Shown here: piece after piece, positions 9,380 to 50,895 of the stretch
Layout: each line of letters starts with the position of its first letter
Numbering within the stretch: the first letter of the stretch is position 1
Origin: Rubrivivax albus
GTDB lineage: Bacteria; Pseudomonadota; Gammaproteobacteria; Burkholderiales; Burkholderiaceae_C
Direction: 5' to 3'
Length of the DNA stretch: 64,000 bases
Assembly (NCBI RefSeq): GCF_004016515.1
Contig: NZ_SACT01000008.1
Location: forward strand, 1-64,000
Translations under genes and position numbers: made by a program
The notes under the pieces: model-generated
Databases searched by the model: none
Told to the model about the DNA's origin: nothing
Seen by the model: the letters and a program-made list of their open reading frames with translations, nothing else

Positions 9380-9389
9380 CGGGTACCGT

Positions 9390-9413
9390 GCTGCGGCGCT
9401 TCAGCGCCGCAGC
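9390..9413. terminator. bidirectional hairpin between convergent genes
   Basis: A perfect 10-base inverted repeat (GCTGCGGCGC / GCGCCGCAGC) with loop TTCA lies between two convergent genes. There is no clear T-run, so termination is inferred. The loop holds the stop codon (TCA read as TGA) of the minus-strand metallohydrolase gene. Confidence 0.65.
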
Positions 9414-10345
9414 GCCGCGCGTTCGTAGCGCGGGAACAGGTGCGCCACGTTGCGCACGTACTCGGTGTCGAAGGCGGCCCAGGCCGTGAAGCGGCCGGGC
9501 ACCGGCGCGCGCAGCAGTTCGTTCATGTCCCAGCCGCCCTCGGCCGCCTGGCGGAAGTGGTCGTCCAGCCACTGCAGGAAGGCGCGCGTGCCGGCCAGCC
9601 CGCTGCCGTCGGCATGTACTGGGCCGTGGCTGGGCACCACGGTGGCGGTCAACACGGGCTGCAGGCGGTCCAGGCTCTGCAGCCAGGCCGGCACGTCGGC
9701 GTGCGGCGTGGTGGGCACGCGCTGCGCGAACACCAGGCCGCCGGCGAAGCTGACACCGCTCTGGCGGTCGATCAGCACGAGATCCGACGCCGTGTGGCCC
9801 CGCAGTTCCAGCAGCTCGAAGCGCCGCTGCCCGAGCGTCCACACACCGGACTTCACCGGTGCGTCGAGCTCGCGGTCGGGTGCCAGCGTTTCGGTGCCCT
9901 TCATCCAGTCGCCGCAGAGCCGGTAGAGGTTGGTCTCGTAGGCCGCCGACTCGCGCCGGATGCCGGCGATGGTGGCCGCCGTGGCCCAGCGTGGCACGTC
10001 GGCGAAGGCCTGGTTGCCGAGGAAGTAGTCCGGGTGCAGGTTGAGCTGCACCACGGCCGCCACCGGTTGCGGCGTGGTGCGTGCGATCAGCGCGCGCAGC
10101 TGCTCGCCGTACAGCCGGCTGGGGCCGGTGTTGACCACCAGCACGCCGGCGTCGGTGACGATGAAGCCGGTGTTGATGATGTTGCAGCCGTTGGCCGGCG
10201 AGAAGTCGGCATTGGCGCCTTCGACCACGTAGACATCGGGCGCCAGGGGGCGCGCCTGCAGCCGGTAGTCCAGCGCCTGCGCCGACACGGGCGCCGTCAC
10301 GCACGCCGACAGCGCGAGCACGAGCGTCGCGACACGCCGCTTCAC
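9401..10345 (-). CDS. quinoprotein-relay zinc metallohydrolase-like protein (second copy)
   Basis: This 314-residue secreted protein has a signal peptide (VATLVLALSACVTAPVSAQ) and a metallo-beta-lactamase-like fold. Visible parts are VYVVEGANADFSPANGCNIINTGF, LNLHPDYFLGNQAF near residue 104, LLELRGHTASDLVLID and VVPSHGPVH. It belongs with the SoxH-related quinoprotein-relay hydrolases. The HxHxDH motif is reduced to HPDY, but later His residues (RGHTASD, PSHGP) are kept. I chose the GTG at 10345 because it overlaps the SoxYZ-like stop (GTGA). It is third in an operon with the TonB receptor and the SoxYZ-like carrier. Confidence 0.8.
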   Translation of the reverse strand: MKRRVATLVLALSACVTAPVSAQALDYRLQARPLAPDVYVVEGANADFSPANGCNIINTGFIVTDAGVLVVNTGPSRLYGEQLRALIARTTPQPVAAVVQLNLHPDYFLGNQAFADVPRWATAATIAGIRRESAAYETNLYRLCGDWMKGTETLAPDRELDAPVKSGVWTLGQRRFELLELRGHTASDLVLIDRQSGVSFAGGLVFAQRVPTTPHADVPAWLQSLDRLQPVLTATVVPSHGPVHADGSGLAGTRAFLQWLDDHFRQAAEGGWDMNELLRAPVPGRFTAWAAFDTEYVRNVAHLFPRYERAALRR

Positions 10346-13247: not shown

Positions 13248-13367
13248 CACACCCGAGCCTTCATCACGTGCCAAGTCCGCACAAACCCCGGCGACTGTGC
13301 CACCGCGTGACGCCTCGGGGGCTCAAGGTGGCGCGGCCACGGCCGACATCGCGGGGGAAGTGACCCG

Positions 13368-28230: not shown

Positions 28231-30351
28231 ATGGGCGACATGAGCAAGGAAGGCGGCCACCTCGCCGCCGGGATCGACCTCAGCCAGTTCTTCCAGGTCT
28301 TCTTCGAGGAGGCCGGCGAGAACCTGGAGAACATGGAGCAGATGCTGCTGGCGCTGGACGTGGGCAATGCCGACGACGAGGCGCTGAACGCCATCTTCCG
28401 CTGCGCGCATTCGGTCAAGGGTGGCGCCGCCACCTTCGGCTTCAGCGACGTGGCCGAACTGACGCACGAGATGGAGACGCTGCTGGACAAGCTGCGCCGA
28501 CACGAGCTGCAGCCCACCGTCGAGATGGTCGACGCGCTGCTGGCCTCGGGCGATGCGCTGCGTGCCCAGCTGGCCCGCCACCAGGCCGGCGGCGCCGGCG
28601 AGTCGCCGGACACGTCGGCCCTGCTGGCCACGATCCGCACGCTGGTCGACGGCGGCAGCGCGCCGTCGGCAGCCACGCCGGCCCCGACGGCGCAGGCCGC
28701 CCAGCCCGCTGCGCCCAAGGCGGCCCCGGGCACGCGCGAGCTCGAGCTCACCGTCGGCCCGCTGGACGACCCGGCGGTGGCCGAGAACCTGGTGGATCTG
28801 TTCAAGGAGATCACCGACCTCGGCCGGATCGAACCGCTGGACGCCGGGCAGTCGGTGGACGGCGTGCGCCGCTTCAAGGTCACCACCGCCAGCAGCGACA
28901 ACGACCTGCTGGACCTGTTCACCTTCCACGTCGCCCGCGAGCATGTGCGCCTGGCGCCCCTCGGCCCGGGCTACGGCTTCCATGAAGGGGCCCCGGGCGC
29001 ACCCAAGGCCGAACCCGCCCCGGCCGGGGATCCCGGCTACGGCTTCTTCGACGACGCCCCCGGCGCCCCCGAGGCCGCCGCCGCGGCCCGGGCCCCTGCG
29101 CCCGCACCGTCGACCACGCCGGCCTCCGCACCCGCACGCCCGGCCACGCCCGCCAAGGCCGAGGCCGGCAAGCCGTCCGCCGGGCCCGACCAGAGCACGC
29201 TGCGCGTGTCGGTGGAGAAGGTCGACCAGCTGATCAACCTGGTGGGCGAGCTCGTCATCACCCAGGCCATGCTGGCCCAGAACAGCAAGGACATCGACAG
29301 CGCGCTGCACCAGCAGCTCACCGCCGGCCTGGCCGACCTGGAGCGCAACACCCGCGACCTGCAGGAAGCGGTGATGTCGATCCGCATGATCCCGATGTCG
29401 CTGGTGTTCAACCGCTTCCCCCGCATGCTGCGCGACCTGGCCGGCAAGCTGGGCAAGAAGGTCGAGCTGGTCACCCAGGGCGAGGCCACCGAGCTCGACA
29501 AGGGCCTGGTGGAGAAGATCACCGACCCGCTGACCCACCTGGTGCGCAACAGCTGCGACCACGGCATCGAGCTGCCCAACGAACGCGTGGCCAAGGGCAA
29601 GCCGGCGCACGGCACCATCACCCTGGTGGCCAGCCACCAGGGCGGCAGCATCGTCATCGAGGTGCGCGACGACGGCAAGGGCCTGTCGCGCGAGAAGCTG
29701 CTGAAGAAGGCCCGCGAACGTGGCCTCGACGCGCCCGACAGCCTCACCGACCAGGAGGTCTACGGCCTGATCTTCGCGCCGGGCTTCAGCACCGCCGAAC
29801 AGGTGACCGACGTCTCCGGCCGCGGCGTGGGCATGGACGTGGTGAAGAAGAACATCACCGCGCTCGGCGGCACGGTGGAGATCGACTCCGCCGAGGGCTA
29901 CGGCATGACCGTGCGCGTGCGGCTGCCGCTGACGCTGGCCATCATGGACGGCATGAGCGTCGGCGTGGGCGACGAGGTCTATATCCTGCCGCTGGGCTCG
30001 GTGGTCGAGAGCTTCCAGGTCCAGCCGGAGACCATCCGCACCATCGGCAACCGCGGCCGGGTGGTGCAGGTGCGCGACGAATACATGCCGGTGATCGACC
30101 TGGAACGCGTGTTCGACGTGCCGCGTTTCGACTTCGAGCACGTGAGCAACATCATGGTCGTCGTCGAGGCCGAGGGCGGCCGCGTGGCCCTGCTGGTGGA
30201 CGAACTGCTCGGCCAGCAGCAGGTGGTGGTGAAGAACCTCGAGGCCAACTACCGCAAGGTGGACGACGTCTCCGGCGCCACGATCATGGGTGACGGCCGC
30301 GTGGCGCTGATCCTGGACATCGGCTCGCTGGTGCGCCGCTCGCGCAGCTGA
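28231..30351 (+). CDS. cheA: chemotaxis histidine kinase CheA
   Basis: This 706-residue kinase has an HPt domain (phospho-His 60 in CAHSVKGGAATFG) and a P2-like CheY-docking region (about 168-240). An Ala/Pro linker follows (about 245-318), with a GYGF..GAPGAP motif repeated twice. Next are the dimerisation helices (about 322-385), the HATPase domain (LVRNSCDHGIE, DDGKGLS, GRGVGMDVV; about 425-565) and a C-terminal CheW-like domain. It phosphorylates CheY under receptor control. It is flanked by cheY and the first receptor gene in one operon. Confidence 0.96.
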   Translation: MGDMSKEGGHLAAGIDLSQFFQVFFEEAGENLENMEQMLLALDVGNADDEALNAIFRCAHSVKGGAATFGFSDVAELTHEMETLLDKLRRHELQPTVEMVDALLASGDALRAQLARHQAGGAGESPDTSALLATIRTLVDGGSAPSAATPAPTAQAAQPAAPKAAPGTRELELTVGPLDDPAVAENLVDLFKEITDLGRIEPLDAGQSVDGVRRFKVTTASSDNDLLDLFTFHVAREHVRLAPLGPGYGFHEGAPGAPKAEPAPAGDPGYGFFDDAPGAPEAAAAARAPAPAPSTTPASAPARPATPAKAEAGKPSAGPDQSTLRVSVEKVDQLINLVGELVITQAMLAQNSKDIDSALHQQLTAGLADLERNTRDLQEAVMSIRMIPMSLVFNRFPRMLRDLAGKLGKKVELVTQGEATELDKGLVEKITDPLTHLVRNSCDHGIELPNERVAKGKPAHGTITLVASHQGGSIVIEVRDDGKGLSREKLLKKARERGLDAPDSLTDQEVYGLIFAPGFSTAEQVTDVSGRGVGMDVVKKNITALGGTVEIDSAEGYGMTVRVRLPLTLAIMDGMSVGVGDEVYILPLGSVVESFQVQPETIRTIGNRGRVVQVRDEYMPVIDLERVFDVPRFDFEHVSNIMVVVEAEGGRVALLVDELLGQQQVVVKNLEANYRKVDDVSGATIMGDGRVALILDIGSLVRRSRS

Positions 30352-30369
30352 CCAACTGGAGACACGGCC

Positions 30370-31956
30370 ATGCTCAACGACTGGATGCGCGGGTTCACCA
30401 TCCGCTTTCGGATGATCGGTGCCATCGGCGTCGTGGTCGCCCTGCTGTGTGCCATCGGCGGCTTCGGCCTGTGGCAGTTGGTGCGCACGCAACACCTCAG
30501 CGGCGATTTTCTCGAACACTCCTTCGCCGAAGCCGGCGGCGTGGCCGACCTGCAGCGCCTGCTGGGCGAACTGCGGCGCCACGAGAAGGACCTCATCATC
30601 TACTACGAGCAGCCCGAGGCGGTGGCCCTGTCGCGCCTGGCCTGGGATGGCGCGTTGCAGTCCACCGAACAGGCCTTCACGGCCCTGCTCGAAGGCGAGG
30701 AGGACGAGGACAACCCGCTGGCGCGCGGCGCCATCGACGACCTCAAGGCCTACCGCGCCGCCTTCGAGCCGGTGATCGCGCAGATCCAGGCCCAGGCCTA
30801 CGACACGGCCACCGTGGTCGACCGCGTCAGCGCCGAGGCCAAGGCCGCCATCGGCGAGGCCGAGGCCAAGCTGGCGCAGATCGACACCATCGTCAAGGCC
30901 GAGGCCGAGGCCACGCAGGTCGAACTGGCAGCGCAGTTCCAGACCGCCATGCTCGGCTTCGGTGCCGTGCTGCTGTTCGCCGTGCTCGTGGTGGTGCCGC
31001 TGACGCTGGTGAACATGCAATCCATCGTGCGGCCGATCGCCCACGCCCGCAAGATCGCCCAGGCCATCGCCGGTGGCGACCTGACGGTGCCGGTACGGCC
31101 CGAGGGCCGCGACGAGGCCAGCGAGCTGCTGGCCAGCCTGGACACCATGCAGACGGCGCTGCGCCAGATCGTCGGCGAGGTGCGCCAGTCGGCCGACGCC
31201 ATCGGTAGCGCATCACGCGAGGTGGCCACCGGCAACGCCGACCTGTCCACCCGCACCGAACACGCCGCCGGCCAGCTGCAGCAGACCGCCAGCGCGATGT
31301 CGCAGATCACGGGCACGGTGCGCCAGTCCGGCGACGCCGCTGCGCAGGCCAACCAGCTGGCCCACGGCGCGGCCGAGGTGGCCCGCCGAGGTGGCGAGGT
31401 GGTGGCTGGCGTCGTGAGCACGATGGGCGAGATCAGCACCAGCTCACAGCGCATCGGGGACATCATCGGCACCATCGACGGCATCGCCTTCCAGACCAAC
31501 ATCCTGGCGCTGAATGCCGCCGTGGAGGCGGCTCGGGCCGGCGAACAGGGCCGTGGCTTTGCCGTCGTGGCCAGCGAGGTGCGCAGCCTGGCCCAGCGCA
31601 GCGCAGAGGCGGCGCGCGAGATCAAGGCGCTGATCGGCGCCAGCGTCGACAAGGTCGAGGCCGGCAGCCGCCTGGTCGGCGAGGCCGGCAGCACGATGGC
31701 CGAGATCGTGGCCAGCGTGCAGCGCGTGACCGACATCATCGGCGAGATCTCCTCGGCCGCCGGCGAACAGACCGCCGGCATCGGGCAGGTCAACGGCGCG
31801 GTGGTGGAACTCGACCGCATGACACAGCAGAACGCCGCGCTGGTAGAGCAGTCCGCCGCCGCCGCGGAAAGCCTGCAGGCCCAGGCGCAGTCGCTCGAAG
31901 ACATCGTCCGGCGGTTCCGCCTCGAGGCTGCCGGCGAGACGACGCAAGCCCTTTGA
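30370..31956 (+). CDS. methyl-accepting chemotaxis protein 1
   Basis: This 528-residue receptor has TM helices at about 14-38 and 195-218, with a four-helix-bundle-type periplasmic domain between them containing [13 protein letters not shown] domain and a signalling domain follow, whose hairpin tip is [20 protein letters not shown]. It ends in RRFRLEAAGETTQAL with no CheR/CheB docking pentapeptide. It lies 18 bases after cheA and is certainly in the che operon. The ligand is not identifiable. Confidence 0.94.
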   Translation: MLNDWMRGFTIRFRMIGAIGVVVALLCAIGGFGLWQLVRTQHLSGDFLEHSFAEAGGVADLQRLLGELRRHEKDLIIYYEQPEAVALSRLAWDGALQSTEQAFTALLEGEEDEDNPLARGAIDDLKAYRAAFEPVIAQIQAQAYDTATVVDRVSAEAKAAIGEAEAKLAQIDTIVKAEAEATQVELAAQFQTAMLGFGAVLLFAVLVVVPLTLVNMQSIVRPIAHARKIAQAIAGGDLTVPVRPEGRDEASELLASLDTMQTALRQIVGEVRQSADAIGSASREVATGNADLSTRTEHAAGQLQQTASAMSQITGTVRQSGDAAAQANQLAHGAAEVARRGGEVVAGVVSTMGEISTSSQRIGDIIGTIDGIAFQTNILALNAAVEAARAGEQGRGFAVVASEVRSLAQRSAEAAREIKALIGASVDKVEAGSRLVGEAGSTMAEIVASVQRVTDIIGEISSAAGEQTAGIGQVNGAVVELDRMTQQNAALVEQSAAAAESLQAQAQSLEDIVRRFRLEAAGETTQAL

Positions 31957-32002
31957 ACCCCACGACCTGCCAGGTCCGGCAGCAACGAATGGTCCGCCAT
32001 CC

Positions 32003-33274
32003 ATGTCACTCTCGACTCAAACCCGCACCCTGCTGACGCTGGGCGCCATCGCCACCAGCCAGGCCTTGCCCGTGGCCGGCCTGCTTTCAGGCTGGAGCAC
32101 GACCACCGTAATCCTGGCCGGGCTGGTGCCCGCCGGCGCCGCCTGTGCGCTCTACCTCGGGGGCCTTGCCGTGCTGGCACGGACCTTGAAGACCTTCCGC
32201 CAGCATCTGGACCGCGTGGGTGCGCTGGACCTCACGGTCGACGTGCCCTGCGACGAGCGCTCCGATGCCGGACAGCTGCTGCTCGGCCTGCAGCAGTTGC
32301 AGCTCAAGCTCCGCGACTCGGTCGGTGCCATTCGCCAAGGTGCCGACGGCGTGTCGGTGGCCGCGGCTGAGATCGCCACCGGCAACACCGACCTGTCCAG
32401 CCGCACTGAGCAGACGGCGGGCAACCTGCAGAGCGCCGCCAGTTCCGTGAGCCAGCTCACCGACACCGTACGCCAGACCGCCGACGCCGCGTCGCAGGCC
32501 AACCAGCTGGCCAGCAGTGCGGTGCAGGTCGCCACCCGCGGCGGCGAGGTGGTCGGGCAGGTCGTCTCCACGATGAACGAGATCAACGCCAGCTCAAAGC
32601 GGATCGCCGACATCATCGGCACCATCGACGGCATCGCCTTCCAGACCAACATCCTTGCGCTGAATGCCGCGGTCGAAGCCGCCCGTGCGGGTGAACAGGG
32701 CCGCGGCTTCGCCGTCGTGGCCGGCGAGGTTCGCAGCCTGGCCCAGCGCAGCGCCGAAGCCGCGCGCGAGATCAAGAGCCTGATCGGCAACAGTGTCGAC
32801 CGGGTCGAGGCCGGCAGCCGCCTGGTGGGCCATGCCGGCGAGACGATGCAGGAGATCGTCGACAGCGTCCGCCGCGTCAACGACATCATCGGCGACATCT
32901 CGGCGGCCTCCAGCGAGCAGAGCGCCGGGATCGGCCAGGTCAACCAGACCGTGGTGCAGCTCGACAGCATGACCCAGCAGAACGCCGCGCTGGTCGAGCA
33001 ATCGGCAGCCGCGGCCGGCAGCCTGCGCGAGCAGGCCGAGCGACTGGCCTCGGTCGTGGCCCGCTTCCAGCTGCAAGCCGGCAGCACCGCCAGGGAAGTG
33101 CCGTCGCCGCGCGCCACGCCGGCGTCGGTCTCGCCCCCCGTGGCGCAGAAGCGCGATGCGCCCGCGGCCACACCGGCCAGGCCTCACACCCGCCCGGTGT
33201 CCGCGCCGGCCCCGGCCGCAACACCCTCGGCAGCGGTGGCCACCACGGCCGACGACGACTGGGAGACGTTCTGA
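32003..33274 (+). CDS. methyl-accepting chemotaxis protein 2, minimal sensor, DWETF tail
   Basis: This 423-residue receptor has only two closely spaced TM helices (about 10-30 and 34-56) and virtually no periplasmic domain. It either senses within the membrane or cytoplasm, or acts as an assistance receptor. The signalling domain has the full hairpin tip. The C terminus ends in a Pro/Ala linker and DDDWETF, close to the NWETF tether of E. coli Tar/Tsr that binds CheR and CheB. It lies 46 bases after receptor 1. Confidence 0.93.
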
Positions 33275-33317
33275 TCCGCGTGCCCCGAACCGCGCGAGTC
33301 CCGAAAGGCAACCCCTG

Positions 33318-34913
33318 ATGAACACCTTGATCCTCATGATGCGCCGGTTCTCCGTGCGCACACGCCTGATCGGCGCCACCGCGGGCATGCTGACGCTGCT
33401 GACCCTCGTCTCACTGGGTGGCTGGTTCGGCCTGAGCTTCACGCTCGATGCGCAGAAGCGCATGTCCTCTTACGAATTCAGGCTGATGGACCTGGCCGGC
33501 ACGATGCGCCACGGCCTGGTGGCCCTGCGCCGCCACGAGAAGGACCTGATGCTGGCCTACGGCTACGACGACCGCACGGCGGCCGCCCGCACCGCCTGGC
33601 AGGCCGATCGCCAGCGCGTGGAATCGGCGCTCGACGAGATCGGCGGCATGGTCAAGACCGCCGAAGGCCAGCAGCTGATCGCCGACATCCGCACGCCGAT
33701 GACCGCCTACCTCGACAACGCCTGGCGCGTGCTCGAGGAACTGCACAGCGGCAACATCATCGCTTCGCTGCAGGAGATCAACGACCGCCTGGCCAGCGAG
33801 GCCGGCAGCCACTTCGATGCCGCCGAGCAGGCCATGGAAACCGGCGTGGCCAAGGTGCGCGAGACGCTGGCCGCCAGCCAGGCCAAGGTGGACGGCTTCG
33901 TCGCCACCGTGCAGGCGGCGCTGCTTGGTGCCATCGTGCTGGCCGTGACCATCGGCGTGGCGGCGGCGGTGGTGATCGTGCGCTCGATCGCGCAGCCGCT
34001 GGCCGCAGGCCGGCGTTTCGCCGAAGTGCTGGCCGACGGCGACCTCACGGTCCGCCCCGACCTGCAGGGCCGCGACGAGGTCACCGGCCTGATGCAGGCC
34101 CTGGGGGCTATGTCCAACCGGCTGCAGGGCGTGGTGGGCGACGTGCGCAGCGGCGCAGACGCCATCCTCACCGCCAGCACCGAGGTCGCCGCCGGCAACC
34201 AGGACCTGTCTAGCCGCACCGAGCAGACCGCCAGCCATCTGCAGCAGACCGCCAGCGCGATGGAACAGCTGGCCTCGACCAGCCAGCAGGCGAGTGCCTC
34301 GGCCGCGCAGGCCGACCAGCTGGCACGGGGTGCGGCCGACGTGGCCCGCCGCGGCGGCGAGGTCGTGACCCAGGTGGTCACCACGATGGACGAGATCACG
34401 GCCAGCAGCCGCCGCATCGGCGACATCATCGGCACCATCGACGGCATCGCCTTCCAGACCAACATCCTGGCCCTGAACGCGGCCGTGGAGGCCGCCCGCG
34501 CGGGTGAACAGGGCCGCGGCTTCGCGGTCGTGGCCGGCGAGGTGCGCAACCTCGCCCAGCGCAGCGCCGAGGCCGCGCGCGAGATCAAGACCCTCATCGG
34601 CAGCAGCGTGGACCGCGTGGAAGTGGGCAGCCGGCTGGTCGGCGAGGCGGGCAGCACGATGGCCGAGATCGTGGCCAGCGTGCAGCGCGTGAGCGACATC
34701 ATCGGCGAGATCTCCTCGGCGTCGGGCGAGCAGACCCAGGGCATGGGCCAGGTCGGCAGTGCCGTGACCGAGCTCGACCGCGCCACGCAGCAGAACGCCG
34801 CCCTGGTGGAACAGGGGGCGGCCGCGGCCACGAGCCTGCGCGACCAGGCCCGCCGCCTCACCGAGGTGGTGGCGGTGTTCCGCACCGGCGACCACCGTCA
34901 CAACCACGCCTGA
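33318..34913 (+). CDS. methyl-accepting chemotaxis protein 3
   Basis: This 531-residue receptor has TM helices at about 14-38 and 197-220 around a four-helix-bundle-type sensor domain. The domain shares the [12 protein letters not shown] motif with receptor 1, which points to gene duplication. HAMP and signalling domains are intact. The C terminus is short and His-rich (GDHRHNHA) with no docking pentapeptide. It is the last receptor of the first che transcription unit; cheW follows with its own promoter. Confidence 0.94.
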
Positions 34914-34931
34914 CATCTGTCGGGCACCCCC

Positions 34932-34958
34932 TCAAGTCACCGCCCAAGGCGCCGATAA
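34932..34958 (+). promoter_or_regulatory. sigma-28 promoter of cheW
   Basis: TCAAGTCA, an 11-base spacer and GCCGATAA (34951-34958) give a perfect -10 octamer and a good -35 for FliA-type sigma-28. It is 26 bases upstream of the cheW ATG, which has an AGGAGA ribosome site. Confidence 0.8.
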
Positions 34959-34984
34959 CCCTTCCATCCCGACCAGGAGATCAC

Positions 34985-35560
34985 ATGGACATGATCGCCG
35001 ACGCCACCCAGGTGGCCCAACACGAAGCCGCCCGCCAGGCCGTCAACGCAGCCGTCGCCGGTGGCAAGGCCGCTGCCCGCAGCGGCGAGTACCTCACCTT
35101 CCGCCTCGGCGGCGAGGAGTACGGCATCGACATCCTGCGCGTGCAGGAGATCCGATCCTACGAGCCGCCCACCCGCATCGCCAATGCCCCGCACTTCATC
35201 AAAGGCGTGGTCAACCTGCGCGGCGTCATCGTCCCCATCGTCGACCTGCGACTGAAGCTGGGTTGCGACAGCGCCGAGTACAACGACTTCACCGTCGTCA
35301 TCGTGCTCAACGTGCGCGGCCGTGTCGTCGGTGCCGTGGTCGACTCCGTCTCCGACGTGCTCGAACTCTCCGCCGGACACATCAAGCCCGCCCCGGAGCT
35401 CTCCAGCGGCATCGACGCGGGCTTCATCACCGGCATCGGCAGCATCCCCCAGCCCGCCGCCAAGGAAGACGACGGCAAGGCCAAGGAACGCATGCTCATC
35501 CTCATGGACATCGAGGGCCTCATGTCCGCCGCCGACATGGGCCTCATTGACGTGCACTGA
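34985..35560 (+). CDS. cheW: chemotaxis coupling protein CheW
   Basis: This 191-residue protein has a CheW fold: [34 protein letters not shown] and [16 protein letters not shown]. It links CheA to the receptors. It has an N-terminal extension of about 30 Ala-rich residues and an insert near [11 protein letters not shown], as in betaproteobacterial CheW. It has its own sigma-28 promoter and is followed by a strong terminator at 35588-35609. Confidence 0.95.
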
Positions 35561-35587
35561 GCACCACGCGCCCGCACCGACCGACAA

Positions 35588-35609
35588 GGCCGCCTCCGGG
35601 CGGCCTTTT
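35588..35609 (+). terminator. Rho-independent terminator after cheW
   Basis: A perfect 7-base GC stem (GGCCGCC / GGCGGCC) with loop TCCG is followed by TTTT. It ends the transcription unit that closes with cheW. Confidence 0.88.
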
Positions 35610-35647
35610 CTCGTCCGGTCGAAGGCGGTGACCGCCGATCAACGGCT

Positions 35648-35675
35648 TCAAGTTGACGTCGCGGCGTGCCGATAA
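35648..35675 (+). promoter_or_regulatory. sigma-28 promoter of receptor 4
   Basis: TCAAGTTG (35648-35655) and a perfect -10 GCCGATAA (35668-35675) are separated by 12 bases. It lies 31 bases upstream of the chosen ATG and rules out an in-frame start at 35653. Confidence 0.75.
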
Positions 35676-35706
35676 CCTCCCGGAGAACACCACCGAGGTC
35701 GATTCG

Positions 35707-37482
35707 ATGTTCAACCTTTCCTCCTGGCCCATGCGAAGGCTGCTGAGCTTCGGCTTCGGCATCGTCATCACGGCCTTGCTGATCGTGGCCGCCACGGGCA
35801 TCCTGGGGCAGCAGCGTACGCTGGGCGCGCTTGGCACGGTGTACCTTGACCGCACGGTCCCATTGGTCGACCTTGGCCAGATCCACTTCCTGGCCACGCG
35901 GAATCGCACCCTGCTCGCGGAGGCCATGCTCGACGGCGATCAGGCGAAGGCACTGCAAGCCCTGAAGGTCATCGAGGCGAACGAAGCACAGAGCGCCGCA
36001 CGCTGGAAGGCGTACATGGCCGCCTACCTGACGCCCGAGGAGGAGCAGATCGCAGCGGCCCTGCACAAGGCGATGGCCGCACTTGATGCCGAGGCCATGC
36101 AACCGATCAAGGCAGCCGTGAGAGAGGGGCGCTTCGACACCGCACAAGCGGTGATGATCGAGAAGATGGACGCGTTGGACGCCCCCCGGCACAAGGCCAT
36201 GGACGATCTGATTGCGTTGCAGACACGCGTAGCCGCCGAGACCTACGACGCCGAAGTCAGGCTCGGGAAGATGCTGTTGGGCTCGTCACTGGGCATTGTT
36301 GCGGCGGGCCTTCTGTTCGGCGGCCTGGCCGCAGCTGCCAGCCTGCGCGGTCTTCACCGTCGTCTGGGCGCGGATCCGGCAGCCCTTGCCCAGGCGGTCG
36401 AGCGCGTGTCGGCCGGCGACCTCGGCTCCATCGCGGGCGTTCGGCAGGCCCCGGAGGGCAGCGTCCTGGCGTTGTTGGGAACGATGCAGGTCAACCTCTC
36501 ACGGCTCGTGGCCGACGTGCGCCGCGGCAGCGACAGCATTGCCACGGCCAGCAGCCAGATCGCCCAAGGCAACCAGGACTTGTCCGGCCGCACCGAGCAG
36601 CAGGCGTCGTCACTGCAGCAGACCGCCGCGTCGATGGAGCAGTTGGGCTCGACCGTCCGGCAGAACGCCGACAACGCCCGCCAGGCCAACCAGCTGGCCC
36701 AGGGCGCCAGCGCGGTCGCGGTCAAGGGCGGCGAGGTGGTCGGACAGGTCGTCGAGACGATCAAGGGCATCCAGGCCGGTTCGCGGCGGATCGCCGACAT
36801 CATCGGCACCATCGATGGCATCGCCTTCCAGACCAACATCCTGGCGCTCAATGCCGCGGTGGAAGCGGCCCGCGCCGGCGAGCAGGGCCGCGGCTTCGCG
36901 GTCGTGGCCGGCGAGGTGCGCACGCTGGCCCAGCGCAGCGCGCAAGCGGCCAGGGAGATCAAGAGCCTGATCACGGACAGCGTCGAGCGCGTGGAATCCG
37001 GCTCCGTGCTGGCCGACCAGGCAGGCGCGACGATGAGCGAGGTGGTCTCGGCGATCCGCCGCGTCACCGACATCGTCGGCGAAATCAGCTCGGCCAGCGC
37101 CGAGCAAAGCCAGGGCGTGAGCCAGGTGGGCGATGCCGTCAGCCAGATGGACCAGGCCACGCAACAGAACGCCGCGCTGGTCGAAGAGAGCGCCGCCGCG
37201 GCCGAGAGCCTTCGACAGCAGGCCCAGGCCCTGGTGAACGCGGTAGCCGTGTTCAAGCTGGCGGGCGAGCCGGCACCTCAGCACACCATCGCTGCGGCAG
37301 GCGCCGTGTCCACCGTGTCGATGCCTGCCGCCCCGGCGGGGCCGGCGGCGCTGGCGGCCCGTGCGGCCACGCGCAGCGGCGCGCAGCATCGGCCGGCGGC
37401 CAAGGCCACGCCTGCGACGACATCGGCCGCGCCACGCTCCGAGACGGCCACCACGGCCGACGACGACTGGACCTCCTTCTGA
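35707..37482 (+). CDS. methyl-accepting chemotaxis protein 4, DWTSF tail
   Basis: This 591-residue receptor has TM helices at about 11-33 and 188-210 with a periplasmic helical bundle between them ([21 protein letters not shown]). HAMP and a complete signalling domain follow. The C-terminal Ala/Pro linker is long and ends in DDDWTSF, a likely CheR/CheB tether. Base composition is slightly less GC-extreme at its 5' end than in its neighbours. It is transcribed from its own sigma-28 promoter, and a GC hairpin follows at 37492-37516. Confidence 0.93.
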
Positions 37483-37491
37483 CCGGGCGCG

Positions 37492-37516
37492 GCGTGGCCG
37501 CCATGACGGGCCACGC
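37492..37516 (+). terminator. GC hairpin after receptor 4
   Basis: An 8-base inverted repeat, GCGTGGCC / GGCCACGC with a 9-base loop, lies ten bases after the stop codon. There is no T-run, so factor-independent termination is uncertain. The rest of the 282-base gap holds only the next promoter. Confidence 0.45.
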
Positions 37517-37696
37517 GCTCGCAGCCGATTCCGCGGTGCCCGAAAGGGCTGCACCCGGCCCCGGCGAAGTGCACGGCCGCGAGGGCATCGCCGCGCCGCG
37601 GCGCAACCGCGAAGGTGCAGACCACCCATCCGCAGTGATGGCGGTCGTCCGCCCGTGAGCAGCGTCAACGTATCGGCACCGCACGGCAGATGTGAC

Positions 37697-37723
37697 TCAA
37701 GTCGACCACGGCCGCGCCGAAAT
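37697..37723 (+). promoter_or_regulatory. candidate sigma-28 promoter of receptor 5
   Basis: TCAAGTCG, an 11-base spacer and GCCGAAAT (6 of 8 matches to GCCGATAA) lie 41 bases upstream of the GTG at 37765. Confidence 0.65.
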
Positions 37724-37764
37724 GGCGGGCAATGACCTGGACGCCTGCCCGTGGAGGACTGCCC

Positions 37765-39348
37765 GTGACCCGATTCGACCCCAACGACAAACTGCTGCTC
37801 ATCGCCATCGGCGTGCTCGCCGCCGCGGCCGCTGCCTATGGCGTCGCCAATGACGGCCTGGGCCTGGCCGTGGGCGTGGGCGCCCTGCTGATGGCCGCAG
37901 CCACCGGTGTAGCCCTGGCCTCGCGTGGCGGCACCGGCAGCCGCATCGGCCTGCCGGTGCTGGGCATGGCGATGGTGGGTCTGGTGATCCACGTCGCCCG
38001 TGGCCACGCCGAGGCGCACTTCGCCGTCTTCGCCTTCCTGGCCGCGACCATCGTCTACCGGCACTGGATGCCAGTGGTGGCCGGTGCGGCCACCATCGCG
38101 GTGCACCACCTGAGCTTCAACTACTTCTAGGAATGGGGCTGGGGGCCGATCTGCTTCACCGAGCCCGGGTTGATGATCGTCATCGAGCACGCGGCCTACG
38201 TGATCGGCGAGGCGGCGATCCTGATCATGCTGGCCGCCCGTTCGCGTGCCGACTTCGCGGCCAACGAACAGCTCTCGCAGATCGCCGAGCGCCTGGTTGC
38301 CGCCGACGGCTCGATCGACTTCCGTGCCGCGCAGCTCGACCGCCCGGCGCCGGCCGCCGCGCAAATGCTCGAGGCGCTGGCCCGCATCGAATGCGCCATC
38401 GCCACCGTGCGCGCCAGCACCGAGTCGATCGCCACCGCGTCGGGCGAGATCGCCCAGGGCAGCACCGACCTGAGCCAGCGCACCGAGCAGACGGCCAGCA
38501 ACCTGCAGCAGACCGCCAGCGCGATGGAGCAGCTCACCGGCACGGTGCGCCAGTCCAGCGATGCTGCGGCTCAGGCCGACCAGATGGCGCGCTCGGCGTC
38601 CGAGGTGGCACGCCGTGGTGGCGAGGTGGTGCAGCAGGTGGTGACGACGATGGAGGACATCCACGCCGCCAGCCGCAAGATCGCCGACATCATCGGCACC
38701 ATCGACGGCATCGCCTTCCAGACCAACATCCTGGCGCTCAACGCGGCGGTGGAAGCCGCCCGTGCCGGCGAGCAGGGCCGCGGCTTCGCGGTCGTGGCCG
38801 GTGAGGTGCGGCAGCTTGCGCAGCGCAGCGCCGAGGCGGCCCGCGAGATCAAGGCGCTGATCGGCAACAGCGTGGAACGCGTGGAGGCCGGCAGTGCACT
38901 GGTCGGCCAGGCCGGCACCACGATGCAGGACATCGTGGGCAGCGTGCAGCGCGTGAACGACATCATCGGCGAGATCTCCGCCGCGTCGGCCGAACAGAGC
39001 TCGGGCATCGGCCAGGTCAACGGCGCGGTCGTGCAGCTCGACACGATGACGCAGCAGAACGCCGCACTGGTGGAGGAGTCTGCTGCTGCGGCAGGCAGCC
39101 TGCGCGAGCAGTCGGCGCGTCTGGCCGACGCGGTGCGCCTGTTCCACCTGCGTGACGGCGCCGCCGCACCGCGGCTTGCACCTGCAGTGCGTCATCCGGC
39201 CCCGACCGCCGCTCCAGCCTCCGCGCAGGCCAGGCCCGCCGTGCGTCCTGCTGCCGTCAAGACGGCTGCGGTGCCGACGCGCCCTGCTCAGCCGGCGACG
39301 GTGGCCACCAGCACGGCCGGCCACAACGACGACTGGGAAACCTTCTGA
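37765..39348 (+). pseudogene. methyl-accepting chemotaxis protein 5 interrupted by an amber codon, DWETF tail
   Basis: The reading frame starts at GTG 37765 behind GGAGGA and encodes a multi-helix membrane sensor domain. It stops at TAG 38128-38130 in HHLSFNYF-stop-EWGWGP. The frame then continues open to 39348 with a full signalling domain and a DDWETF tail. Homologues that I recall read Gln at the stop, so a single CAG-to-TAG change is likely. With read-through the protein would be 527 residues, about the size of its neighbours. Alternatives are amber suppression, a separate start at 38170, or a sequencing error. The sigma-28 promoter, ribosome site and terminator are all intact, so the damage looks recent. 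Confidence 0.85.
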
Positions 39349-39407
39349 GCCGTCGATCCGATCCGTGCTGCCCGGCGCAACGTCGCCGGCCGACCTGACC
39401 CATCGCA

Positions 39408-39437
39408 GCGCGCCCCCGAGGGCGCGCTTCAGTTTTT
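39408..39437 (+). terminator. Rho-independent terminator after receptor 5
   Basis: A perfect 8-base stem (GCGCGCCC / GGGCGCGC, loop CCGA) is followed by TTCAGTTTTT. The T-run overlaps the -35 element of the next promoter. Confidence 0.85.
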
Positions 39438-39455
39438 GCAGATCTCGGCCGAAAT
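39429..39455 (+). promoter_or_regulatory. candidate sigma-28 promoter of receptors 6 and 7
   Basis: TCAGTTTT, an 11-base spacer and GCCGAAAT (39448-39455) form a sigma-28-like promoter whose -35 lies in the T-run of the preceding terminator. It lies 37 bases before the ATG at 39493 and excludes upstream in-frame starts. Confidence 0.6.
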
Positions 39456-39492
39456 GCCCTCAGGCCCTCCTCGTTTCACACGCCTTCCGCCC

Positions 39493-40863
39493 ATGTTCAA
39501 GTCCCCCTCGATCACGCTGCGCCTGTGGGCGCCGACCATCGGCCTGGCCCTGATGCTGGGTATCGCCGGCTCGATCACCACCGTGCGCACCCAGGCGCTG
39601 ATCCGGGACGCGGCGCAGCAGCAGTCGGGGCAGCTCGACCGCCTGCAGCAGGCGCAGCAGTGGCGCAATGCCGTCTCGCACCGCGAGGACGATGCCGCCC
39701 TGCGCGGTGCGCTGCTGGCCGGCGCCGCCGATGACGCCGAACGCCAGGCCTTGTCCAACGCCGCGTCGGCCACCGACCCGGCCGCCCGCCTGGCCGCGGC
39801 CGACGCCTTCGTGACCCTGCAGCGTGACCGCATGCGCCAGATGCAGGATGCGGCCGCCGCCAACCGGATGCGGACCGTCTGGGGCGTGCTGGCGCTGATG
39901 GCCGTGATCGTGGGCGTGTCGGCGCTGGGATCGGCCTTCCTGGTGCGCACCGTGTGCCGGCCGCTGCTGGCCCTGCGCACGCTGGCCGAACGCATCGGCC
40001 ATGGCGACCTGGCAGCACCCGTGGACACCAACCGTGCCGACGAGATCGGCGACCTGCAGCGCTCCATCGCCGAGATGCGCGACGCGCTGCGGCGCGTGGT
40101 CGGCGACGTGCAGGCCGCGGCCGAGCAGATCCGCCTGGCCAGCACCGAGGTGGCCGCCGGGAACACCGACCTGTCGGCGCGCACCGAATTGACGGCGTCG
40201 CGCCTGCAGCAGACGGCCAGCGCGATGGCGCAGATCACGCAGACGGTCCACCAGTCCAGCGACGCCGCGGCGCAGGCCAGCACGCTGGCCACGGCGGCAT
40301 CGGGCAGCGCACAGCGCGGCGGCAGCGTCGTCGCGCAGGTGGTCTCGACGATGGACACCATCCATGCGAGCAGCCGGCGTATCGCCGACATCATCGGCAC
40401 CGTCGACGGCATCGCGTTCCAGACCAACATCCTGGCCCTGAACGCCGCGGTGGAAGCAGCGCGTGCCGGTGAGCAGGGCCGCGGCTTCGCGGTGGTGGCC
40501 GGCGAGGTGCGCACGCTGGCACAGCGCAGTGCCGCGGCGGCACGAGAGATCAAGGCGCTGATCGGCAGCAACGTCGAGAGCGTCGAGGCCGGCGCCACGC
40601 TGGTCAAGGACGCCGGGCAGTCGATGCAGGACATCGTCGACGGCGTGCAGCGCGTGACGGTCATCGTCGGCGAGATCAGCGCCACCAGTGGCGCCCAGCG
40701 CGGCGACATCGGCGCGGTGCACGACGCCGTGGGCGAGCTCGACGGCATGACGCAGCAGAACGCCGCGCTGGTCGAGCAGAGCGCCGCCGCCGCCGAGAGC
40801 CTGCGTACGCAGGCGGCGCGGCTGACGGATATCGTCTCGGCTTTCCGCCTCACCGCCCCCTGA
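39493..40863 (+). CDS. methyl-accepting chemotaxis protein 6
   Basis: This 456-residue receptor has TM helices at about 9-28 and 128-150 with a short helical periplasmic domain of about 100 residues. HAMP and the signalling domain follow. The tip reads [20 protein letters not shown]. One usually conserved Glu in the descending helix is changed ([11 protein letters not shown] where others have SxEQxxGIxQV), which may remove a methylation site. There is no docking pentapeptide. The gene is followed 19 bases later by receptor 7. Confidence 0.92.
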
Positions 40864-40882
40864 CCGGCACCGGGAGCCGTCC

Positions 40883-42469
40883 ATGCTGCGGCGCCTGCCC
40901 CTGTTTCCCCGCCTGCTGACCGCGGTGGCCGTGCCGCTGCTGCTGATGGTCGCAGCCGCCGCGATGGCGGGCTGGCAACTGCAGCGCATCGGCGCCGCCA
41001 ACCACAGCCTGGAATCGACCCGGGGGCAGCGCGACCTGGTCGGCAACTGGATCGGTCATGTGCGCGACAACCTGGACAAGGCCATCCTGGCGACCCGGTT
41101 CGACGCCGTGGTCGGTGACGATGCCGAGCTTCAGCAGCGCACGTCCGCTGCGCTCGGGGCATTGAACCAGGCCATGGCCGACACCGCGGCCGCCGCGGCC
41201 ACGCAGCAGGACGCCATGCTGGCCAGCCTGCAGGACGACGCGGACATCGACCGGGCGGCGGGGATCCGCCAGCGCGTCGACCAGGTTGCAGCCGACCGTC
41301 AGCGCTTCGTGCAGGCCCGCGCGTCCGTGCGGGACGACCTGTTGCTGGGAGAGGGGGCAGAGCGCATCGACACCGACCTGGCGCCGCTGGCGCAGGCGAT
41401 GAAGGCTTCGCTCGACGACTTGCAGGCGCACATCGACGCGCAGGCCATGGCAGCGTCGGCCCGTGTCGATGCCGCGGTGAAACAGGCCTCGAACGTGCTG
41501 GTGGCGGCCTGCCTGGCCGCGCTGGCGGCGGGCGGCGCGCTGGCCTGGCACCAGGCCCGCTCGATCACGCGACCGGTGCACCTGGCGGGGTCATTTGCCA
41601 GCGAGATCGCCGGCGGCAGCCTGACCGCCAGCATGGCGGTGCACGGGCAGGACGAGATGGCGACCCTGCAGCGCACGCTGCTGGGCATGCGCGATGCGCT
41701 GTCCGCCGTGGTGCACCAGGTGCGCGAAGGCGCCGGCCAGATCAAGCTGGCCAGCGGCGAGATCGCCAACGGCAACGGCGACCTCTCCGGCCGGACCGAA
41801 CAGACGGCCGCGGAACTCCAGCAGACCGCCAGCGCCGTGCAGCAGCTGGCCACCGGCGCCCAGCAGACCGCCGACTCGGCCCGCAGCGCGGCAACGCTGG
41901 CCGACAGCGCTGGCGACGTGGCGCGGCGCGGCGGCGCGGTCGTCACCCAGGTCGTGCAGACGATGGAGCAGATCTCGGCACGCAGCGGCCGCATCGCCGA
42001 CATCGTGGGCACCATCGACGGCATCGCCTTCCAGACCAACATCCTGGCGCTCAACGCCGCGGTGGAAGCCGCGCGTGCCGGTGAGCAGGGCGGCGGCTTT
42101 GCCGTGGTGGCCACCGAGGTTCGGGCCCTGGCCCAGCGCTCGGCCGGGGCGGCCCGCGAGATCAAGGCGCTGATCGGCGACAGCGTGGCGCAGGTCGAGT
42201 CGGGCGCCAAGGTGGTCGGCCAGGCCGGCGAGACGATGCGCCAGATCGTGACCAACGCGGGCAACGTCAAGCAGCTGATCGCCGAGATCAGTCACGGCGC
42301 GCAGGAGCAGACCGCGGGTCTGACGGACATCACCCAGTCGGTGGAGCAGCTCGACGGCATGACGCAGCAGAACGCCGCGCTGGTCGAGCAGACGGCCGCC
42401 GCCGCGGCGTCGCTGAAAGACAGCGCGCTGCGCATGAACGACGCGATGGCGTTCTTCCGGACCCACTGA
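40883..42469 (+). CDS. methyl-accepting chemotaxis protein 7, divergent tip
   Basis: This 528-residue receptor has TM helices at about 9-30 and 190-215 around a helical sensor domain. The signalling domain is the most divergent of the array: the tip reads [13 protein letters not shown] and EQGGGF in place of the near-invariant EQGRGF. The C-terminal bundle also differs ([21 protein letters not shown]). It lacks a docking pentapeptide. It is the last chemotaxis gene and is co-transcribed with receptor 6. Confidence 0.92.
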
Positions 42470-48234: not shown

Positions 48235-49245
48235 TCACCGGGCGGCTGACGGCCCGTCAAGGCTGCGCAGGAACGCCACCAGCAACGCGTTGACATCGGC
48301 AGCGCGCTCACGCTGCACCCAGTGGCCGGCGCCGGGCAGCACGTGCTGCCCCCGCAGGCCCGGCAGTGCACGCTTCAGATCCTTCAGCCGTTCGCGCACG
48401 CCCGGGAAGGCCAGCAGGTCGTCCCGCTCGCCGACGATGAACAGCGACGGCTGCCGAATCACGGCGCCGTACCAGGGCGCCATCAGCTCGGCGTTGCGAC
48501 GGATGGCCCGGTACCAGTTCAGGCCGCCGGCGAAGCCGCGGCGGCGGAAGTCCTCGGCCGTGGCGCGCAGGTCGTCGGTGTCCCACCAGGCGGGCAGGCG
48601 CGCCGGGTCGGGTTCCTCGGTCACGTCCAGGAAGCCGGCACCGGGCGGCAGCACGCCGGCCACCACGCGATCGGGGCCGTCGCCGGACATGCTCCACCAC
48701 ACGCGGCGCAGCGTGGCTTCCGGGTCGGCGTCGAGCTCCGCCTCGGCCACGCCCGGCGCCTGGAAGTACTGCATGTAGAAGGTGTGCACGCCCTGGCGCT
48801 CATAGGCCATCAGCAGGTCCACCGGCGACGGTGGCACGAAGGGCACGGCCAGCCCGGCGACGGCGCGGAAGACGTCCGGCCGCATCAGTGCCGCGTACCA
48901 GACCGCAGGCGCGCCCCAGTCGTGGCCCACGAGCACCGCCTGTGTCTCGCCCAGGGCCTTGACCAGGGCCACCAGGTCGCCGGCTTGGTGCAGCATGGTG
49001 GATTGCTCGGGGCCGAGGGCACCCTCCGGATGCTTCGTCGACACGGTGCCGCCGTAGCCGCGCATGTCCGGCGCCACCGCGCGGTAGCCGGCAGCAGCCA
49101 GCGCTGCGAGCTGATGACGCCAGCTGCGCCAGCCTTCCGGAAAGCCGTGGCAGAAGATGACCAGCGGGCCCTCGCCCTGCACCGCGGCGTGCAGACGCAG
49201 ACCGGGCAGGTCGAAGATTCCAGTCTGGAGAGTGGTGTCTGGCAT
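48235..49245 (-). CDS. alpha/beta hydrolase, epoxide hydrolase-like
   Basis: This 336-residue enzyme has the oxyanion motif HGFPE (around residue 34), DMRGYGGT, the nucleophile elbow GHDWGAPAVW (Asp nucleophile, as in epoxide hydrolases and haloalkane dehalogenases), a cap domain, and a C-terminal catalytic His in LPGAGHWVQRE. The length and motifs fit soluble epoxide hydrolases. The substrate is unknown. It lies downstream of the CZB gene on the same strand, separated by 174 bases with hairpins. Confidence 0.87.
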   Translation of the reverse strand: MPDTTLQTGIFDLPGLRLHAAVQGEGPLVIFCHGFPEGWRSWRHQLAALAAAGYRAVAPDMRGYGGTVSTKHPEGALGPEQSTMLHQAGDLVALVKALGETQAVLVGHDWGAPAVWYAALMRPDVFRAVAGLAVPFVPPSPVDLLMAYERQGVHTFYMQYFQAPGVAEAELDADPEATLRRVWWSMSGDGPDRVVAGVLPPGAGFLDVTEEPDPARLPAWWDTDDLRATAEDFRRRGFAGGLNWYRAIRRNAELMAPWYGAVIRQPSLFIVGERDDLLAFPGVRERLKDLKRALPGLRGQHVLPGAGHWVQRERAADVNALLVAFLRSLDGPSAAR

Positions 49246-49312
49246 GGCTGACGCCGTCCGGCGACCTGAAGTTCAGGGCCATGCCATCATCGACTGCTCT
49301 GGACCGCATGGC

Positions 49313-49370
49313 CGTCACTTCGGTGACGCAGGGCCATGCCGCAACGCCATCGCCCGGGGACTTCGGCCCC
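49313..49370. other. two TTCG-type hairpins downstream of the CZB gene
   Basis: CGTCAC-TTCG-GTGACG (49313-49328) is a perfect stem with a stable tetraloop. GGGGACTTCGGCCCC (49356-49370) is a second one. They lie between the CZB stop and the epoxide hydrolase start. A 12-base direct repeat CAGGGCCATGCC occurs at 49274 and 49329. They may end or protect the CZB transcript. Confidence 0.45.
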
Positions 49371-49419
49371 TGAACCAGATCAGCTGGACAGTGCCGCCAA
49401 GTGGCGACACCGCGGACCG

Positions 49420-49785
49420 TCAAACCGTCGCCGGAGCAGAGATCGCCTTCTTCAGTCCAAGGATGGCCGACCCCACTGCCGAGGAAGCACCCGCATACGG
49501 TGTCCCCGCTTCCAGCATCGCGCTGGCACCGGCGTAGTCGCCGCGGTTGATGGCGGCGGCCACCTGGCCGGCGGCGCGGTGGAACTCGGCGTGCTTGCCC
49601 AGGCACTCGCGATAGGCAGGCAGTCGGTTGTACAGACCCTTGGCCTCACCATGCAGCCACTGTCCCAAGGGGCAGCAGTTGTCCATCGCAATGCTGGACG
49701 CATCCATCTTGCTCTTCTGCTGAATGGCCATGCCGAACTTGACTTTCCATTCCGCGTGGGCCTGCGAGGCGTTGCTTAGATCCAT
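49420..49785 (-). CDS. stand-alone CZB (chemoreceptor zinc-binding) domain protein
   Basis: This 121-residue protein consists almost only of a CZB domain. The Zn ligands are a His in HAEWKVKF, a Cys in DNCCPLGQWLHG, a His in WLHG and a His in GKHAEFHRAAG. CZB domains usually sit at the C terminus of chemoreceptors or the N terminus of diguanylate cyclases, where they sense zinc or oxidants such as hypochlorous acid. Here there is no fused output, so it could act in trans. I chose the ATG at 49785 because it starts on MDLSNASQAH. A sigma-28-like promoter lies upstream. Confidence 0.85.
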   Translation of the reverse strand: MDLSNASQAHAEWKVKFGMAIQQKSKMDASSIAMDNCCPLGQWLHGEAKGLYNRLPAYRECLGKHAEFHRAAGQVAAAINRGDYAGASAMLEAGTPYAGASSAVGSAILGLKKAISAPATV

Positions 49786-49828
49786 GTGCGCGCTCCGTTT
49801 GGGACCCCGACCAGGGCCATCGGACACA

Positions 49829-49855
49829 TGATCGTCACCCGGAGAGCAAACTTGT
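49829..49855 (-). promoter_or_regulatory. candidate sigma-28 promoter of the CZB gene
   Basis: Read on the minus strand, ACAAGTTT (49855-49848), an 11-base spacer and GACGATCA (49836-49829) match the sigma-28 pattern TCAAGTTT-N11-GCCGATAA at 7 of 8 and 6 of 8 positions. It is 43 bases upstream of the CZB ATG. Confidence 0.55.
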
Positions 49856-49878
49856 GGCCATAACGCTACCGCGGTCCT

Positions 49879-50871
49879 TCAACAGACGCCAAAGGTCACA
49901 CCTGAATGCTGCAGCCAGCGCCTGTAGGCGGCGCTGAGCCGGTCGGCCGCACTGTGCACCTCACCGCCTGAGACTGGGAGGCGCCGGGGCCGCTGGCTTT
50001 CCAGCACGGCCCGGTCCTGGCCGAAGATGGTGTCCTGGAACTGCTGCAGTGCCTCATCGGGCGTGGCGGTGTCGGTGGTGAACTGCATGAACCAGGCTCG
50101 GCAGCGCTCCTCGTCCACCGGGCAGGCAAAGGCGGCATACGCATCGGCCACACCGCCACCCTCGGGTTGCTTGACCAGCAGCGCCGCGTACGGCCCCAGC
50201 ACCTCGTAGCGGTAGTCCACCCACGCGCCCTCCGCCGACGAGGCCGACGCACGCGGCTGCCAGGCGCGGTAGTGCGGGATCAGCGGGCGGCCGTCGGCCG
50301 TGTGCTGCACGTCGTAGGCCGGCACCTCGGGGTGCGCCGCGTCACCCAGCCAGCCTTCGTGCACGAAGGCGAAGTGCGAGGTGTCGAGGAAATTCTCGAT
50401 CAGGCGCGGTGCGCTGGTCTCCACGGTGTAGGGCCCGCAGACCACACGTCGGGCCGGCACGCCGACACAGGCCGGCGGCGTCGGCTCGACGGGGTCGCGC
50501 GCCACCCACCACAGCCCATGGGCCTGCGCGACCCGCCAGGTGCCCGCCGCATGGCCATCGGGTGGCACGAAATCCGGCGCCGCCGGGATGCGCACACAGC
50601 GGCCCATCGGGTCGAAGCGCCAGCCGTGGTAGGCGCACTGCAGCTGCCCGCCGACGACGCGGCCCAGCGACAGTGCGGCGCCGCGGTGCGGGCAACGGTC
50701 GTCGAAGGCGGCCACACCGCCGGCACCGCGCCAGAGCACCAGGTCGTGCCCCAGCAGGCGCACCGGAAGCGGCGGCCCGCCCACGGTGGCCAGGTCATCG
50801 ACCATGGCCACCGGCTGCCAGAAGCGCGCCTCGGCCGGCACGCCGCTGGGGGCGTCGGTGGCCATGGCCAT
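49879..50871 (-). CDS. Rieske non-haem iron oxygenase, alpha subunit (HpxD-like by context)
   Basis: This 330-residue oxygenase has the Rieske motif CPHRG (Cys 60, His 62) and CAYHGW (Cys 79, His 82). The mononuclear iron motif is NFLDTSHFAFVH (Asn 160, Asp 163, His 166, His 171). It hydroxylates or demethylates a substrate using electrons from a reductase not encoded here. It is 24 bases downstream of a purine/nucleoside binding-protein gene. In Klebsiella the Rieske protein HpxD oxidises hypoxanthine, so a purine substrate is plausible but unproven. I preferred the ATG at 50871 over the GTG at 50874. Confidence 0.8.
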   Translation of the reverse strand: MAMATDAPSGVPAEARFWQPVAMVDDLATVGGPPLPVRLLGHDLVLWRGAGGVAAFDDRCPHRGAALSLGRVVGGQLQCAYHGWRFDPMGRCVRIPAAPDFVPPDGHAAGTWRVAQAHGLWWVARDPVEPTPPACVGVPARRVVCGPYTVETSAPRLIENFLDTSHFAFVHEGWLGDAAHPEVPAYDVQHTADGRPLIPHYRAWQPRASASSAEGAWVDYRYEVLGPYAALLVKQPEGGGVADAYAAFACPVDEERCRAWFMQFTTDTATPDEALQQFQDTIFGQDRAVLESQRPRRLPVSGGEVHSAADRLSAAYRRWLQHSGVTFGVC

Positions 50872-50895
50872 CACCGCGGGTGGGTCAGCTGGCCA

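Follow-up and report, generated by a model that had tools for sequence, protein, structure and literature searches.

A Stand-Alone CZB Protein of Rubrivivax albus Belongs to a Clade With Recurrent Predicted FliA-Type Promoters

The stretch of Rubrivivax albus DNA considered here, 64,000 nucleotides in length and referred to as the window, contains a true gene encoding a protein that comprises one CZB domain with all four ligand residues in place. The protein is a member of a clade of stand-alone CZB proteins, a known kind of protein, and what is new is the recurrence in this clade of a promoter of the FliA (sigma-28) type. As judged from sequence, there is strong evidence that such a promoter is a feature of the clade. 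The reading preferred here, albeit tentatively, is that the protein serves as a zinc/redox sensor of the FliA regulon that acts in trans on chemoreceptors, much as CetB acts with CetA.

A Protein Comprising One CZB Domain

The coding span of the CZB gene runs from an ATG at 49785 to 49423 on the reverse strand, with the stop codon at 49420-49422 (Table 1). The longest open reading frame at this locus would encode 135 residues, with 121 being counted from the ATG. Because the first methionine is nearly invariant (90% or more) among 55 aligned rows, this ATG is a likelier start than is the GTG at 49827. The sole Pfam match of the 121-residue protein is CZB (PF13682; E = 1.7e-10; 41.6 bits, as compared to a cut-off of 29.4). 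Neither an MCP signaling domain nor a GGDEF domain was found in the chain by inspection of the ORF and by Pfam. The protein is hence of the CZB-only kind, bearing out the preliminary description of this DNA, in which the CZB domain had been said to stand alone.

The predicted zinc ligands are H10, C38, H65, and H69, with an additional cysteine at C37. The four positions align with the His, Cys, His, and His of 3t9o, and across the 55 aligned rows, in which the stand-alone relatives share 42-66% identity with the window protein, C38, H65, and H69 are each found in 55 rows and H10 in 54, the exception (L089) presenting Tyr at this position. The protein is thus predicted to bind zinc via three His and one Cys. 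An AlphaFold model based on the 55 sequences of the window protein and its relatives was of high confidence, with a pLDDT of 96.5 and a pTM of 0.89. In two fold comparisons, the top match was 3t9o, corresponding to the CZB domain of DgcZ. With Foldseek, this match was assigned a probability of 1.00 but a weak E value of 0.026, while VIA superposed 110 residues at 2.7 A with a Z of 11.0, amounting to a tie with the four-helix sensor domains of chemoreceptors (Z of 10.3 or less). The assignment to CZB is based on the sequence family and the ligands.

Table 1. Positions of the features of the window considered in the text
Feature	Position	Strand	Description
Stand-alone CZB protein gene	49420..49785	-	121 aa; addressed by Pfam, alignments, 3t9o alignment, model, and fold comparison
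FliA (sigma-28)-like promoter	49829..49855	-	-35 ACAAGTTT at 49855-49848, 11-nt spacer, -10 GACGATCA at 49836-49829
93-bp gap, Rieske oxygenase stop to CZB start	49786..49878		Contains the promoter-like site; GGAG ribosome-binding-like stretch, by eye
Upstream neighbor, Rieske/VanA-type oxygenase	49879..50874	-	Pfam; no evident link to CZB
Downstream neighbor, alpha/beta hydrolase	48235..49245	-	Pfam; no evident link to CZB
Chemotaxis cluster: cheA, seven MCP genes, cheW-like gene (34985)	28231..42469	+	Possible partners
FliA-like site	34932	+	Before cheW-like gene
FliA-like site	37697		Upstream of a 132-aa ORF that precedes the MCP at 38170
FliA-like site	39429		Before the MCP at 39493
FliA-like site	13323-13349	+	Before the PAS-GGDEF-EAL gene at 13368-15587

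Stand-Alone CZB Proteins and Their Relatives

Descriptions of the CZB domain mostly present it as a portion of bacterial chemoreceptors. In the preliminary description, CZB domains had been taken to be almost always fused to chemoreceptors or diguanylate cyclases, a view that proved to be wrong. Perkins et al. (2021; PMC8262984) give CZB-only proteins as 27.1% of 10,140 CZB sequences, some of these possibly being incomplete. In the present analysis, 80 loci were retained out of 209 relatives from a collection of species genomes, and 58 of these loci are not part of an MCP-motif frame. The other 22 were omitted from the promoter counts, which thus considered 59 loci (the 58 and the window), while the survey of upstream neighbors considered 61 (the 58, the window, L060, and L061). 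Among the 58, L076, L082, L100, L106, L108, and L129 present open frames of over 220 residues and L104 one of 206, such that further domains are possible in these cases. No function for CZB-only proteins was found in those portions of the CZB literature that were drawn upon, absence from print not being proven thereby.

Within the genus, 81 genomes were searched, that of the window being included in this number, and five genomes other than the latter contain a stand-alone relative at E <= 1e-20 (G009, G043, G027, G052, and G460), meaning that the gene is patchily distributed in the genus. A search of phages for relatives yielded no match, three pattern matches in viral contigs included no relative, and plasmids offered a single record of 36.5% identity. 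On these grounds, the possibility of the gene being phage or plasmid cargo was rejected.

A tree was calculated from 130 CZB domains over 117 columns, duplicates having been removed along with any match that spanned less than about 80 positions of the profile; many of its forks are weak. Here, 67 of the 77 stand-alone rows cluster together (99/74, which is under the starred level) and are separated from the membrane receptors of Burkholderiales, with 15 Methylobacter-type receptor rows, comprising one clade, nested within this cluster. The window protein falls into a 15-row clade of stand-alone proteins (95/87) that is defined by the protein tree only. A second cysteine immediately before the ligand Cys is found in 60 of 68 stand-alone rows when the distant CZB-only set is put aside, and in none of the eight members of that set. 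Such a residue is present in 14 of the 15 Methylobacter-type receptors and in 13 of 38 other receptor-borne CZB domains. Several CZB frames can also lie close together, as in Chitiniphilus shinanonensis (three; L095, 9249-12055) and in a Comamonadaceae MAG (two; L124, 6384-7273).

Genes in the Vicinity of Stand-Alone CZB Genes

Seven MCP genes are found at 30370-42469 on the forward strand, behind cheA at 28231. The CZB gene is thus not adjacent to a receptor gene, in contrast to what would be expected of a CetAB-like pair, with the nearest MCP gene ending at 42469, some 7 kb away. While this distance had been correctly noted in the preliminary description, it proved to be uninformative. Around the 59 stand-alone loci, MCP genes are no denser within 2 kb (2.70 per 100 kb) than they are at 8-10 kb (2.77 per 100 kb). 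As MCP density does not fall with distance, a receptor neighborhood was rejected as evidence. In single cases (L109 and L128), an MCP gene lies directly upstream of a stand-alone CZB gene, and in L086 (G793:C118:57524-69362), the stand-alone gene is found within a run of MCP genes on the same strand.

Other neighbors bear on the possibility that the protein is indeed a stand-alone zinc/redox protein but one with a thiol or peroxide stress enzyme or regulator as partner, in which case FliA would only set the timing of expression or the link to FliA would be limited to the clade. Such a scenario is unlikely, although it is to be taken seriously. A gene of the AhpD/carboxymuconolactone decarboxylase type is found upstream, on the same strand and 34-164 bp away, in five of the 61 loci considered (L120, L126, L136, L137, and L140; positions of about 9240-9970), these coming from Rhodoferax, two Undibacterium, and two MAGs. 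PF02627 was detected in four of the five, the Pfam run having covered all but L126. In three Methylobacter loci (L115, L117, and L138), a gene encoding an MBL-rhodanese protein lies directly upstream; this description relies on Pfam in the cases of L115 and L138, with a resemblance to persulfide dioxygenases being noted by eye. Finally, Pfam identified an OsmC gene upstream and on the same strand in L111. Such peroxide- and sulfur-type neighbors fit a redox role, which need not involve chemotaxis. At the same time, they belong to sub-lineages other than that of the window protein, each set representing one or a few lineages, and the window locus has no neighbor of this sort.

FliA-Like Sites in the Genome and in the Clade

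The genome encodes a full FliA (277 bits) and presents four flagellin-domain matches and 22 MCP matches. FliA-like sites in this genome precede genes for flagellin, FliD, CheY, a CheW-like protein, and MCPs, with flagellin having been named by a domain search, fliD and cheY by eye from the N-termini, and the others by Pfam. Most of these sites read TCAAGTC-N12-GCCGATA or GCCGAAA. A loose pattern applied to the whole genome was dropped as being too common, yielding 381 matches on both strands, as compared to 182 for a reversed control. A matrix was assembled from eight sites of the genome, each of which, when left out, ranked between 2 and 34 from the top of 288,298 positions.

The sigma-28-like site ACAAGTTT-N11-GACGATCA before the CZB gene lies where the preliminary description had placed it. 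With the eight-site matrix, this site scored 11.5, ranking 11th of 127,948 positions in the window. The p values of the site were 0.0106 relative to same-length windows along the locus and 0.028 relative to the regions upstream of 142 predicted genes, with a score of 10.5 being assigned in the latter comparison. A pattern shaped on the site itself, AAGTTT-N11-GNCGATNA, had one perfect match in the whole window and, when up to two mismatches were allowed, three matches, versus 0.42 expected. Taken alone, the window site thus offers moderate evidence for a FliA-type promoter.

In the clade, a site scoring 8.7 or more was found in nine of the 15 rows, as compared to three of the 142 further genes predicted at these loci (Fisher test, 8e-9). 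When two close pairs (L083/L091 and, from Ideonella, L072/L073) were merged and L053 was dropped, the values became seven of 12 clade rows versus three of 142 genes (2e-7). L053, despite its high score, was not accepted as an independent case, given the terminator-like hairpin between the site and the start. The three non-CZB genes that reached 8.7, all scoring above the 10.5 of the window site, comprised two MCP genes, one in L079 and the other at 35707 in the window, together with the window gene at 13368 that encodes a PAS-GGDEF-EAL protein. No good site precedes the gene in the six remaining clade rows (L072, L079, L103, L081, L060, and L092), and the sites in L118 and L076 are weak.

A scan for the best site within 150 bp before the start, which took in 13 of the 15 rows of the clade, led to a similar picture. 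A p value of 0.0131 or lower was obtained in nine of the 59 stand-alone loci, where fewer than one would be expected. Seven of the nine are in the clade (L073, L083, L091, L074, L076, L075, and the window), with only two of 46 loci outside the clade, namely, L104 (Dyella) and L129, reaching this level. Likewise, seven stand-alone loci drawn from the order (L214-L217, L219, L222, and L223) included none with a p value below 0.05. Four fused or long loci were skipped in this draw, and L214 and L219 repeat the sites of L086 and L095, respectively, and so do not represent new cases.

The promoter of the window gene might nonetheless be a chance match, with the gene being read from the transcript of the oxygenase gene or from another promoter and having no motility role here. 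This too is unlikely, even though the p values of the site considered alone leave room for such an explanation. Moreover, its -10 element, GACGATCA, deviates from the GCCGATA or GCCGAAA of most sites in the genome, and a scan of the window with the bare consensus TAAAGTTT-N11-GCCGATAA, allowing for up to three mismatches, missed the site before the CZB gene, returning only that at 34932 on the forward strand. Arguing against chance, similar or better sites are found in clade members with different neighboring genes. Because the neighbors differ, other than within the L072/L073 and L083/L091 pairs, the clade site does not simply reflect shared flanking DNA. Furthermore, the window site lies within the gap between the two genes with a plausible spacing to the ATG, and neither a sigma-70-like nor a terminator-like site was found in 48800-50600, although the lack of a terminator means that read-through from upstream is possible.

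The recurrence of a sigma-28-like site would therefore tie the CZB gene to the motility regulon, and its conservation supports the predicted membership of much of the clade in the FliA regulon. All 16 carrier genomes checked encode FliA and MCPs; as carriers alone were compared, this may reflect no more than the order being largely motile.

Proposed Action and Comparison to Known Systems

According to the preferred reading, in which the protein is a FliA-regulon sensor for chemoreceptors, the CZB domain would be a cytosolic four-helix bundle binding one zinc by way of the three His and one Cys. Transcription of the gene by FliA would lead to the protein being made as flagella and chemoreceptors are built. 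Zinc occupancy would report on the zinc/redox state, as possibly would oxidation of the ligand Cys or of its neighboring Cys. The protein would then dock on a chemoreceptor or array protein, both the docking and the partner being conjectural, and so relay its signal in trans, with sensing in a bipartite receptor falling to it in the manner of CetB for CetA.

In the case of TlpD, where CZB is fused to the receptor, CheA is activated when the receptor carries zinc and inhibited when it does not (PMC12871147). In a 2026 preprint, soluble zinc is argued to serve CZB receptors as a proxy for redox state (PMC13370339). CetA/CetB (PMC2628428) and CetA2/CetB2 (PMC12442639) illustrate how sensing may reside in a domain that has a protein of its own. 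The likeness to these pairs is proposed for the manner of working only, with sensing and signaling being assigned to separate proteins. CetB senses by a PAS domain rather than by CZB, and cetAB are co-transcribed and do not depend on the flagellar regulon (PMC2628428; PMC12442639), whereas the window gene lies on its own and is preceded by a FliA-like promoter.

The window protein shares its domain with receptors of the TlpD and McpA type, in which CZB is C-terminal, and with membrane MCP-CZB fusions, the MCP-borne CZB domains of the family being up to 46% identical to it and those of the Methylobacter type up to 52%. It differs from all of these receptors in having no signaling domain in the chain and in its place in the stand-alone clade of the tree. 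Closest in kind is the CZB-only subgroup of PMC8262984, likewise presenting a lone CZB domain with the zinc ligands retained. The window clade differs in that much of it has FliA-like promoters and its lineage in mostly having the second Cys, neither of which was met in the portions of PMC8262984 drawn upon.

Should the preferred reading of a trans-acting sensor hold, the PAS-based CetAB would be joined by a two-part chemoreceptor of a CZB-based kind, in which zinc sensor and receptor are different proteins. The clade with FliA-type promoters would link part of a large CZB-only group to swimming. A broader version, considered here as possible but doubtful, is that the stand-alone CZB proteins of the lineage are separate subunits, free to diffuse, that provide chemoreceptor arrays with zinc/redox input, their place in the flagellar regulon allowing one sensor to serve several receptors and the second Cys acting as an additional thiol switch; if so, a role could be assigned to part of that large group.

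Control by FliA favors chemotaxis over c-di-GMP signaling as the role of the protein. That the target of its action in trans is instead a diguanylate cyclase or phosphodiesterase, with the protein offering input into c-di-GMP signaling, is quite improbable. Such an action would be in line with the regulation of DgcZ by CZB in Escherichia coli (PMC8262984) and with the FliA-like site before the PAS-GGDEF-EAL gene at 13368 in the window. Against it, identity to DgcZ is 16-19%, as compared to up to 46% to MCP-borne CZB domains of the family, and GGDEF and EAL matches are few near the stand-alone relatives (two and one, respectively, within 2 kb across the 59 loci). As a known system, DgcZ resembles the window protein in that its CZB domain (3t9o/4h54) is the first-ranked structural match, with the four ligands aligned, and differs in that the window protein contains no GGDEF domain.

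The Second CZB Sequence of the Genome

The possibility that the window protein is a relic, namely, a former receptor domain that became detached and is now drifting, is brought to mind by the other CZB sequence of the genome being a severed receptor tail, but is highly improbable and is already contradicted by conservation, given how a large stand-alone lineage has kept the ligands despite identities of 42-66%, the single H10 replacement aside.

The CZB matches of the genome number two, these being the window protein and a sequence on C22 (633653-633976). The latter, together with the MCP gene that precedes it, matches one-piece receptors, sharing 63% and 71-74% identity with L030; L030 and L150 represent intact one-piece relatives. 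A TAG stop codon and a change of frame separate the C22 CZB sequence from its MCP gene (G000:C22:632159-635353, L001; L061:6140-7977). The origin of the window protein by fission from a receptor of the same genome was rejected, as in the tree the C22 sequence falls among fused receptors, whereas the window protein clusters with proteins of the stand-alone kind. Unless the break in C22 stems from faulty assembly, no intact CZB other than the window protein was found in the genome.
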